A DNA stretch of 64,000 nucleotides from Neocallimastix lanati (nom. inval.). Taxonomy: Eukaryota > Neocallimastigomycota > Neocallimastigomycetes > Neocallimastigales > Neocallimastigaceae. Below the pieces are notes generated by a model. That model saw nothing but the letters and a program-made list of their open reading frames with translations, ran no database searches and had not been told where the DNA came from. Where the stretch lies: contig JACVTC010000101.1 in assembly GCA_016946835.1 (NCBI GenBank), positions 145,001 to 209,000 on the forward strand. Reading direction: 5' to 3'. Shown in pieces: positions 36,473 to 41,078 of this stretch (positions are counted from its first letter, which is position 1; each line of letters starts with the position of its first letter). The position numbers and the translations under genes are program-made.

Positions 36473-37903
36473 TTAAGCGCTGTCCTTAGCTGCATTTCTT
36501 TCTTCGATTTCTTTGTTGATCTTTTCAATCTTTTCATCCGTTAAACTGTATCTGGAAATAATAATCATACAAACGATAGCAAGAATAGCTGGAATGACAC
36601 AGACAGTCCAACGAATGGCTTCTTGAGCAGAGGACTTTTGTTTGTAAAGATCGTTCATTAAGTAGTTGTTAGACGTGTTACTAATGTTTTGCATAACGAA
36701 AGAAACAATGAAGAAGAGGGAGACGACAACAAGTGGTGGATTACGAGTGAATTCAGTCCAGAAATCACTAACTTTGACAGAATTGGTTTGACCTTCTTCC
36801 ATAACAACACGTTCCTTAGTTTGAGTGAAACAGAAGACAAGAATGATGAAACCGATGACAAAGTAAATGGATAAAGTAGTGAACCAAGCCATTGGATCTT
36901 TTGGTAAAGTACTTTCTCCAGCTGGTGGTGAAACATATCCGGAAGCTTGAATAATCCAACCTGGAATAGCTCCTCCTAAAGCAAAACCGGCCTTGAAGAA
37001 TAAACCAGTAATAGCATTAACAATAGCTGAAATTCTACGGCCCGTCTTCCATTCACCATATGAAATAACTTCGGGAACAAGAGCCCATTGATAACCGGTA
37101 GCAACACAAACACCTGTGGATTTAATTAAATTACCAATACGATACCACCAGTCATTGGCATTCATTCGACTGGCAATATATAAAATAGCATTACCACAGA
37201 CAGCAACCGTTAAGAAAACGTAGAACATGTTCTTCTTACCAATCAAATTCTTAATAGCTGGCATAAATGGAACAATACAAAGATTTGGAATGTTACCGAA
37301 TAAGTTGAAAAGAATCATATCCCATGGAATTGGAGTGCCACCAACAATGGCAATGAAAAGGAAAAGTAAGGTGTATACGAAGAAACAACCAATATTAGCA
37401 CACCACATACGAAGTGAAGTAAGCATGGTAATTTCATCATTGTCTCTAGTTAAAGAAGAGTTAATAGCACCATATGGAACATTAACTAAAGTGTAAGATA
37501 ACGATAATAAGATGTAGGTAATGTAGATGTATGGAACGGATGGAGCAAATTTATTCCAGAAGGTAAGAGCTGAGAAAACAGTTAAAGGAATACCACCAAT
37601 AATTAAATAGGAACGGTATTTACCCCAACGTGGGTGATTCTTATCAATGAAAGCACCAACAATTGGATCCCAAACCATATCTACAAAACGAACGATTAAC
37701 ATTAAAGTGGAGGCAATACCTGCAGCTCTACTTCTATCACCACCTAAAATATAAACATCAGTACAGAAGAACATAAGTTGAGAAGCAACAGTTTGATAAA
37801 TTAAATTTTGGGCTAAATCACCAGAAGCGAAACCGAATCTTTGAACCCAAGAAAGTTTGTAGAAACCTTTGGCTTCTAAATCTTTTCTATCTACTTCAGA
37901 CAT
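36473..37903 (-). CDS. GPH/MelB-type sugar:cation symporter, copy A, rearranged order
   Basis: 476 residues, intronless. Family hallmarks are clear: GDLAQNLIYQ in TM1, DMVWDPIVGAFIDK (75-88) with the Asp pair expected at the cation site, RWGKYR (92-97) in the TM2-3 loop, NVPYGA (141-146), VPEVISYGEWKTGRR (276-290) in the TM10-11 loop, and RYSLTDEKIEKI after the last span. Relative to MelB and bacterial relatives as I know them, the block with TM6, the cytosolic TKERVV loop and TM7 (about 340-424) lies after TM11, not between TM5 and TM8. The order is TM1-5, 8-11, 6-7, 12. All junctions fall in loops predicted outside, so topology is kept. Likely role: plasma-membrane import of a sugar or oligosaccharide with H+ or Na+. 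Family distribution suggests bacterial origin (inference). Protein identical to copy B. Confidence 0.88.
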   Translation of the reverse strand: MSEVDRKDLEAKGFYKLSWVQRFGFASGDLAQNLIYQTVASQLMFFCTDVYILGGDRSRAAGIASTLMLIVRFVDMVWDPIVGAFIDKNHPRWGKYRSYLIIGGIPLTVFSALTFWNKFAPSVPYIYITYILLSLSYTLVNVPYGAINSSLTRDNDEITMLTSLRMWCANIGCFFVYTLLFLFIAIVGGTPIPWDMILFNLFGNIPNLCIVPFMPAIKNLIGKKNMFYVFLTVAVCGNAILYIASRMNANDWWYRIGNLIKSTGVCVATGYQWALVPEVISYGEWKTGRRISAIVNAITGLFFKAGFALGGAIPGWIIQASGYVSPPAGESTLPKDPMAWFTTLSIYFVIGFIILVFCFTQTKERVVMEEGQTNSVKVSDFWTEFTRNPPLVVVSLFFIVSFVMQNISNTSNNYLMNDLYKQKSSAQEAIRWTVCVIPAILAIVCMIIISRYSLTDEKIEKINKEIEERNAAKDSA

Positions 37904-37908
37904 TGTAA

Positions 37909-37968
37909 TTTATTTATTTATTTATTTATTTATTTATTTATTTATTTATTTATTTATTTATTTATTTA
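37909..37968. repeat. (TTTA)n directly upstream of copy A start
   Basis: About 15 tetranucleotide units begin 6 bp upstream of the ATG (antisense view) and would lie in the 5' leader. It is the counterpart of the longer array before copy B. Confidence 0.9.
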
Positions 37969-38120
37969 TTAATTATTTTTATTTATTTATTTATTTATTT
38001 TTATTTTATTAACTTAAATTATAATATATCTATATATATATTAATACTTTTTTTTATTTATTTTTTTATTGACATAATTATTTATATTTAGATATATTTA
38101 TTTTGAATAAAAAATATATA

Positions 38121-39329: not shown

Positions 39330-39477
39330 ATATATTTATTTTATTCAAAATAAATATATCCAAATATAAATAATTAAGTTAATACATATTAAAAGTATAA
39401 AAAATAAAAAATAAATATAAAAAAAATCTATAATATATATATATAGATATATAGTAATTTAAGTTAATAAAATAAAA

Positions 39478-39642
39478 ATAAATAAATAAATAAATAAATA
39501 AATAAATAAATAAATAAATAAATAAATAAATAAATAAATAAATAAATAAATAAATAAATAAATAAATAAATAAATAAATAAATAAATAAATAAATAAATA
39601 AATAAATAAATAAATAAATAAATAAATAAATAAATAAATAAA
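39478..39642. repeat. (AAAT)n directly upstream of copy B start
   Basis: About 41 uninterrupted AAAT units end a few bases before the ATG at 39648. The antisense open frame of repeating Ile-Tyr-Leu-Phe is an artefact of this array. Confidence 0.95.
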
Positions 39643-39647
39643 TTACA

Positions 39648-41078
39648 ATGTCTGAAGTAGATAGAAAAGATTTAGAAGCCAAAGGTTTCTACAAACTTTC
39701 TTGGGTTCAAAGATTCGGTTTCGCTTCTGGTGATTTAGCCCAAAATTTAATTTATCAAACTGTTGCTTCTCAACTTATGTTCTTCTGTACTGATGTTTAT
39801 ATTTTAGGTGGTGATAGAAGTAGAGCTGCAGGTATTGCCTCCACTTTAATGTTAATCGTTCGTTTTGTAGATATGGTTTGGGATCCAATTGTTGGTGCTT
39901 TCATTGATAAGAATCACCCACGTTGGGGTAAATACCGTTCCTATTTAATTATTGGTGGTATTCCTTTAACTGTTTTCTCAGCTCTTACCTTCTGGAATAA
40001 ATTTGCTCCATCCGTTCCATACATCTACATTACCTACATCTTATTATCGTTATCTTACACTTTAGTTAATGTTCCATATGGTGCTATTAACTCTTCTTTA
40101 ACTAGAGACAATGATGAAATTACCATGCTTACTTCACTTCGTATGTGGTGTGCTAATATTGGTTGTTTCTTCGTATACACCTTACTTTTCCTTTTCATTG
40201 CCATTGTTGGTGGCACTCCAATTCCATGGGATATGATTCTTTTCAACTTATTCGGTAACATTCCAAATCTTTGTATTGTTCCATTTATGCCAGCTATTAA
40301 GAATTTGATTGGTAAGAAGAACATGTTCTACGTTTTCTTAACGGTTGCTGTCTGTGGTAATGCTATTTTATATATTGCCAGTCGAATGAATGCCAATGAC
40401 TGGTGGTATCGTATTGGTAATTTAATTAAATCCACAGGTGTTTGTGTTGCTACCGGTTATCAATGGGCTCTTGTTCCCGAAGTTATTTCATATGGTGAAT
40501 GGAAGACGGGCCGTAGAATTTCAGCTATTGTTAATGCTATTACTGGTTTATTCTTCAAGGCCGGTTTTGCTTTAGGAGGAGCTATTCCAGGTTGGATTAT
40601 TCAAGCTTCCGGATATGTTTCACCACCAGCTGGAGAAAGTACTTTACCAAAAGATCCAATGGCTTGGTTCACTACTTTATCCATTTACTTTGTCATCGGT
40701 TTCATCATTCTTGTCTTCTGTTTCACTCAAACTAAGGAACGTGTTGTTATGGAAGAAGGTCAAACCAATTCTGTCAAAGTTAGTGATTTCTGGACTGAAT
40801 TCACTCGTAATCCACCACTTGTTGTCGTCTCCCTCTTCTTCATTGTTTCTTTCGTTATGCAAAACATTAGTAACACGTCTAACAACTACTTAATGAACGA
40901 TCTTTACAAACAAAAGTCCTCTGCTCAAGAAGCCATTCGTTGGACTGTCTGTGTCATTCCAGCTATTCTTGCTATCGTTTGTATGATTATTATTTCCAGA
41001 TACAGTTTAACGGATGAAAAGATTGAAAAGATCAACAAAGAAATCGAAGAAAGAAATGCAGCTAAGGACAGCGCTTAA
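39648..41078 (+). CDS. GPH/MelB-type sugar:cation symporter, copy B, rearranged order
   Basis: The 476-residue protein is identical to the copy at 36473-37903, and the DNA looks identical over the stretches I compared. Copy B is transcribed away from copy A across a 1.74-kb shared upstream region. Family, motifs and unusual segment order are as in copy A; here the three rearrangement junctions fall near 40233 (after TM5), 40665 (after TM11) and 40917 (before TM12). Identity over 1.4 kb in such A/T-rich, variable DNA implies a very recent duplication, continuing gene conversion, or an assembly palindrome. The differing microsatellite lengths and the 188-bp triplication only on this side argue against a pure assembly mirror. 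Confidence 0.88.
   Translation: MSEVDRKDLEAKGFYKLSWVQRFGFASGDLAQNLIYQTVASQLMFFCTDVYILGGDRSRAAGIASTLMLIVRFVDMVWDPIVGAFIDKNHPRWGKYRSYLIIGGIPLTVFSALTFWNKFAPSVPYIYITYILLSLSYTLVNVPYGAINSSLTRDNDEITMLTSLRMWCANIGCFFVYTLLFLFIAIVGGTPIPWDMILFNLFGNIPNLCIVPFMPAIKNLIGKKNMFYVFLTVAVCGNAILYIASRMNANDWWYRIGNLIKSTGVCVATGYQWALVPEVISYGEWKTGRRISAIVNAITGLFFKAGFALGGAIPGWIIQASGYVSPPAGESTLPKDPMAWFTTLSIYFVIGFIILVFCFTQTKERVVMEEGQTNSVKVSDFWTEFTRNPPLVVVSLFFIVSFVMQNISNTSNNYLMNDLYKQKSSAQEAIRWTVCVIPAILAIVCMIIISRYSLTDEKIEKINKEIEERNAAKDSA

Follow-up and report, generated by a model that had tools for sequence, protein, structure and literature searches.

In canonical proteins of the major facilitator superfamily (MFS), two six-helix halves are joined by one cytosolic loop, that of transmembrane helices 6 and 7 (TM6-7). 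For this superfamily, ancient helix-triplet repeats were reportedly inferred by Madej and Kaback. Under their 'mix-and-match' hypothesis, as cited in the available part of PMC4889909, blocks of helices can be combined in different order. The subject of this study is a GPH-family protein related to the Na+/melibiose symporter MelB, encoded twice in a 64,000-nucleotide stretch of the Neocallimastix lanati genome (contig JACVTC010000101.1, positions 145,001 to 209,000; hereafter the window), in which the helices were confirmed to follow one another in the order 1-5, 8-11, 6-7, 12. It is very probably a re-threaded MelB-like GPH sugar:cation symporter that still works, with xylo-oligosaccharides as its likely cargo, and that was permuted in bacteria before it was acquired and amplified by the fungus.

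The two open reading frames (ORFs), of 476 aa each, lie at 36473-37903 (-) and 39648-41078 (+), and their DNA is identical, in agreement with an earlier note on this DNA, which had the same permutation in both copies. Copy 2, a single uninterrupted frame on the + strand, encodes the N-terminus and TM1-5 in residues 1-192 (39648-40223), TM8-11, fused straight to TM5 and containing the YGEWKTGRR loop, in residues 193-331 (40224-40640), the moved TM6-7 with its TKERVV cytosolic loop in residues 332-421 (40641-40910), and TM12 with the C-terminal tail in residues 422-476 and the stop (40911-41078). The first three blocks were placed by segment search, block exchange and transfer of MelB helix positions, and the last by segment search and helix transfer; the boundaries of TM8-11 and TM6-7 are cut points accurate to plus or minus several residues. 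In copy 1, with the same sequence on the - strand, the corresponding blocks occupy 37328-37903, 36911-37327, 36641-36910 and 36473-36640. The copies sit in an inverted duplication with arms of 1800 nt (36271-38070 on the left, 39481-41280 on the right) that are 98% complementary. The assembly from which the window comes (199 Mb, 762 contigs) contains 25 full-length copies, 97-100% identical, on seven contigs and without stops, together with one relative at 56% identity, a cluster at about 51% on contig C14, in which the full-length members follow the order of the window protein, and partial matches, some of them with stops. The gene is amplified in this genome, often as inverted pairs, and clusters of the same gene in both orientations were seen on contig C555 of G000 at about 480-516 kb and 634-652 kb.

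The helix order was read by the earlier note from the positions of YGEWKTGRR (residues 282-290) and TKERVV (362-367), which are correct, and it was borne out by three approaches. In the first, the window protein was cut into its four segments and these were compared by blastp with 213 proteins, consisting of 210 database hits, E. coli MelB, YagG and the window protein itself; these 210, the best hits from one search with a permuted and one with a doubled protein as query, form a biased set, in which 142 proteins are permuted (143 with the window protein), 64 are canonical and four have TM6-7 twice, both after TM5 and after TM11. With MelB and YagG, which are too distant, blastp gave no placement of TM6-7; profiles built from the segments gave the canonical order for YagG and an incomplete result for MelB, and the segment-profile classifier found 28 distant and 29 close relatives all canonical (56 of these 57 had been retrieved with a canonical protein as query, L160 in a separate search, so that this set too is biased). 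In the second, exchange of the two blocks raised the local alignment score against YagG (319 to 428), MelB (200 to 273), P0123 (879 to 1277), P0121 (866 to 1276), L134 (309 to 478) and L135 (337 to 522), and the true exchange exceeded the best of 200 random exchanges in six of six canonical proteins. The best cuts, from a coarse scan in 6-residue steps, were 198, 334 and 430 against P0123 and 192, 334 and 418 against YagG, close to the boundaries of 195, 339 and 424 proposed earlier. In the third, MelB helix positions, taken from the available part of PMC4889909, were carried over by multiple alignment and gave the order 1,2,3,4,5,8,9,10,11,6,7,12; each of the three new junctions fell on the outside, as had been expected.

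Family profiles give a consistent picture. The window protein scores 268.2 over its whole length on TIGR00792 (NCBIfam gph; curated cut-off 231.35) and 253.8 on PF13347 (cut-off 27). Its TIGR00792 match is broken into four stretches, the best of which covers residues 22-189 and stops at profile position 165 of 437; in the window protein, P0004 and L058 alike, the best stretch stops after TM5, while the close canonical proteins P0123 and L102 each give one stretch over profile positions 1-437. A collinear match is absent from the window protein, collinearity being a trait of the canonical controls that lies outside the curated cut-off. Sequence, profiles and predicted model support the earlier proposal that the rearrangement would be a non-circular permutation by internal segment exchange.

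Within one bacterial subfamily the permuted order is common, and it is peculiar neither to the window protein nor to fungi. This extends the earlier note, as does the finding that canonical relatives sit in operons like those of the permuted ones and that rare hybrids have TM6-7 twice. Permuted sequences served as queries for a scan of bacterial and archaeal genomes; the retained loci, the best 80 of 549 matches listed, are all permuted, with 78 complete and two cut off at contig ends. Identities run from 58% down to 40%, and their contig titles are mostly Prevotella, Prevotellaceae and other Bacteroidales. The gene was also seen on contigs titled Lentisphaerae (L048) and Kiritimatiellae (L050, L079), with Succinatimonas among the titles of L022, L048, L050 and L079; these four off-taxon contigs reflect either gene transfer or mis-binned contigs of metagenome-assembled genomes. 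From the family of G005, the genome that carries L011, 399 genomes were drawn evenly and queried with P0043, a doubled protein, at E 1e-80; a few candidates were scored per genome, and order was assigned by matched range in a hand tally. Matches were found in 73 genomes: 57 have a canonical member and 16 a permuted one (G740 has both), and the order in G089, whose match lies at a contig edge, was undecided. No match among the rows from these genomes spans a gene with doubled TM6-7.

The wide occurrence of the order bears directly on whether it could be an artefact. Misassembly of the window's genome might be suspected because the pair of copies makes up an inverted repeat that is AT-rich and hard to assemble, but the order is shared by the 25 full-length copies on seven contigs and by the 80 bacterial loci, which rules this explanation out for practical purposes. 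That the protein lost TM6-7 and gained, after TM11, a pair of unrelated helices has next to no probability: the match of TM6-7 to MelB and YagG is indeed too weak for blastp, but the moved block is 55% and 58% identical to TM6-7 of the canonical P0121 and P0122, which refutes an unrelated origin. A dead or misfolding gene copy, of which the stretches with stops elsewhere in the genome might be a hint, is highly improbable and was rejected, since the 25 copies are stop-free and the ratio of nonsynonymous to synonymous substitution rates (dN/dS) between the window copy and four diverged genome copies is 0.03-0.04, with 57-74 synonymous and 8 nonsynonymous differences. Eight loci were taken for this comparison and six were parsed, two being the window copies (L008 and L009 were left out); by this ratio the compared copies are under purifying selection.

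The AlphaFold2 model of the window protein (predicted local distance difference test score, pLDDT, 88) has a predicted 12-helix MelB-like fold and superposes on MelB over 355 residues at 2.6 Å, compared with 443 residues at 2.6 Å for a canonical control; the difference of 88 residues corresponds roughly to the length of the moved block. Together with the dN/dS values and conservation beside bacterial xylan-degradation genes, the model lends indirect support to the earlier suggestion that the protein folds and works. In the proposed arrangement, the twelve helices of the permuted chain would occupy MelB-like positions, and, since each of the three cuts falls in an outer loop, the TM6-7 pair would retain both its cytosolic loop and its orientation across the membrane. 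The chain would cross between the halves three times, at TM5-TM8 and TM11-TM6 outside and at TM6-TM7 inside. Alternating access would persist, which requires that the outer linkers permit outward opening, and these two linkers may act as additional tethers. They comprise 13 (TM5-TM8) and 26 (TM11-TM6) residues between the MelB-mapped helix cores, and about 5 (188 to 194) and about 16 (320 to 337) between helices in the model, so that the TM5-TM8 join appears tight.

Among 13 functional MelB positions checked, R52, D55, D59 and K377 are kept. The TM2 aspartate pair D55 and D59, of the cation site, corresponds to D75 and D79 of the window protein. None of the MelB sugar-site residues D19, D124, W128, R149 and W342 is identical in the alignment; R149 aligns to M166, the neighbour of a conserved R165. 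In the same alignment YagG, itself a GPH protein, likewise departs from MelB at D124 and W128, and the sugar-site residues of MelB are thus not a family requirement.

Several points weigh against a working, MelB-like symporter of bacterial origin. Nine of the 13 positions differ (K18, D19, N58, D124, W128, R149, W342, Q372 and T373), and cargo and coupling may therefore differ from those of MelB; these residues and the tight predicted TM5-TM8 join lower confidence somewhat. The alignment of the model with MelB leaves the placement of TM6-7 unseen, VIA-align leaving unstated whether it keeps chain order, and the deep permuted protein L058 scores 227.9 on TIGR00792, slightly below the cut-off. 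A donor and a transfer are suggested by similarity and the uninterrupted frame, and the trees described below contained no labelled fungal row besides the window protein.

The likely cargo is suggested by gene neighbourhoods in bacteria. Permuted and close canonical relatives are found in operons of one type (esterase, GPH, GH10): the permuted L011 locus contains a GDSL esterase, GPH, GH10 and GH43, and the deep permuted L058 locus GPH, GH10 and GH43, while the canonical L102 and L103 loci contain GPH and GH10 with a GDSL and a SASA esterase, respectively. The neighbour cluster exemplified by GH10 was found at 35 of about 81 permuted loci and 14 of 29 close canonical loci (with a flank of only about 1.5 kb), and GH67, GH115 and arabinofuranosidase genes are near some loci. 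From this xylan-gene neighbourhood and its resemblance to the xyn cluster of Prevotella bryantii, of which XynD is the inner-membrane transporter according to the available part of PMC8002723, xylo-oligosaccharides are likely to be the cargo. Among the window ORFs checked, neither GH10 nor GH43 lies beside the fungal GPH gene.

The gene was probably acquired from rumen bacteria. By similarity it is closest to the Bacteroidales subfamily beside xylan-degradation genes: the window protein is 54-59% identical to unlabelled or Prevotella-labelled database hits and 61% identical to L011 over aligned segments. Bacteria are probably where the permuted order arose; the fungus would have taken up a gene already permuted and then amplified it. 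The nearest labelled proteins are P0002 and P0003 of Neocallimastix californiae; their gene models lack stretches of the window ORF, the TM5-TM8 region in one and TM3-4 in the other, which are perhaps spurious introns. Transfer of transporters into gut fungi was reported in general in PMC11291939, in the available text of which the terms GPH and symporter were not found, and the words GPH and melibiose were not found in that of the gut-fungal membrane-proteome paper PMC5168858. According to a survey (PMC8778642, in the part available), every early-diverging fungal taxon analysed has GPH proteins, among which the SUT1 type is named. On the similarities and contexts above, the window protein is most likely a working xylo-oligosaccharide symporter from a rumen Bacteroidales-type donor.

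How the two orders are related was approached with trees of 25 and 66 rows, from which near-duplicates of at least 80% and at least 86% identity, respectively, were dropped. Proteins missing any of the four segments and doubled proteins were left out (except for single segments in segment trees), as were, from the 66-row tree, rows with short TM6-7 or TM8-11 matches and distant canonical proteins from L002, L017, L018, L026, L061, L073 and L097-L100. The four doubled proteins, of 559-565 aa, were first read as ancestral intermediates, a reading dropped because sliding scores show a single-crossover hybrid pattern, switching from canonical-like to permuted-like within TM8-11 (near residue 361 in P0007, near 301 in P0043 and P0084, between 341 and 381 in P0171); they may be in vivo recombinants between the forms or assembly chimeras.

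The simpler reading, with a somewhat better than even chance, is that the order changed once, long ago, from canonical to permuted, that the close canonical members are what survives of the sister lineage, and that recombination between the two forms later blurred the record. The approximately unbiased (AU) test without TM1-5 does not reject a single permuted clade (p 0.597 with 66 rows, 0.581 and 0.426 with 33 rows), and the TM6-7 tree requires two changes; on the other side, the clade is rejected when all segments are used (p 0.0108, 33 rows drawn from the 66), and the TM8-11 tree alone splits the canonical members into two groups. The bolder reading, which seems doubtful, is that the order is switchable and has flipped more than once, the close canonical members being reversions from permuted ancestors, by recombination and via 14-helix intermediates with TM6-7 in both places, of which one copy was then lost. 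The same all-segment AU result speaks for it, as do the all-segment trees of both sizes, which nest canonical members among permuted ones, the doubled proteins with the expected intermediate layout, and the occurrence of both orders in the same kind of operon. However, the segment trees conflict, and TM1-5 appears to have been exchanged between the two forms, permuted P0192 grouping with canonical rows in the TM1-5 tree; TM6-7, TM8-11 and TM12 together leave one permuted clade unrejected (the p values of 0.597 and 0.581); the 14-helix proteins read as hybrids and none is spanned by a match row in the 399 family genomes; and the canonical forms have outgroup-like TM11-12 linkers, as judged by eye. 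Outgroup branches are long in these trees. Reversion was dropped as a main claim because of the conflicting segment trees and the AU tests without TM1-5. If the order were switchable, related genes in the same operon would arrive at one fold through different threadings.

Adjoining the GPH pair are four near-identical 505-aa transporters with Pfam matches to Sugar_tr, in both orientations, at 43955-45472 (-), 47399-48916 (-), 51329-52846 (+) and 55470-56987 (+), which differ by at most 16 DNA positions and at most one amino acid. Other ORFs in the window are one that pairs an esterase Ig-like domain with an S9-type hydrolase domain (58710-60161, -), a 246-aa ORF with a CotH match (17614-18354, +), a 434-aa ORF with no Pfam match at E 1e-5 (28971-30275, +) and a 273-aa ORF whose match is to the second half of Sugar_tr (63146-63967, -).

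No earlier description of the permuted GPH order was found among the matches listed in searches of the open-access literature. The case appears to be one of a transporter fold re-threaded by nature, for which the close canonical relatives, found in operons of the same type, provide controls. Many bacterial relatives share the order, and natural re-threading that leaves the fold of a transporter intact is therefore apparently feasible. It opens to test whether insertion order or final packing determines membrane-protein folding, whether alternating access needs the single central MFS linker, and how large order changes can proceed by way of intermediates that work. It also means that order-bound comparison of structures and profiles underrates permuted relatives.

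Compared with MelB (9oli, 7l16), the window protein has homologous segments, the TM2 aspartate pair, the TM11 lysine and a MelB-like predicted model, but differs in helix order and at most of the functional positions checked. XynD of the Prevotella bryantii xylan clusters, as far as the available part of its description goes, is comparable by gene context only, the bacterial relatives of the permuted protein likewise lying beside GH10 and GH43. The close canonical GPH subfamily (P0121, P0123, L101-L127) is nearer, P0121 being 53-60% identical to the window protein per segment and L102 and L103 lying in the same kind of operon, but has TM6-7 between TM5 and TM8. Natural permutations of soluble proteins such as the swaposins have likewise changed the order and kept the fold, but are mostly circular. 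Unlike the rearrangements envisaged in the mix-and-match hypothesis, the one described here is an actual reordering among close homologues, in which a two-helix block has been swapped with a four-helix block.
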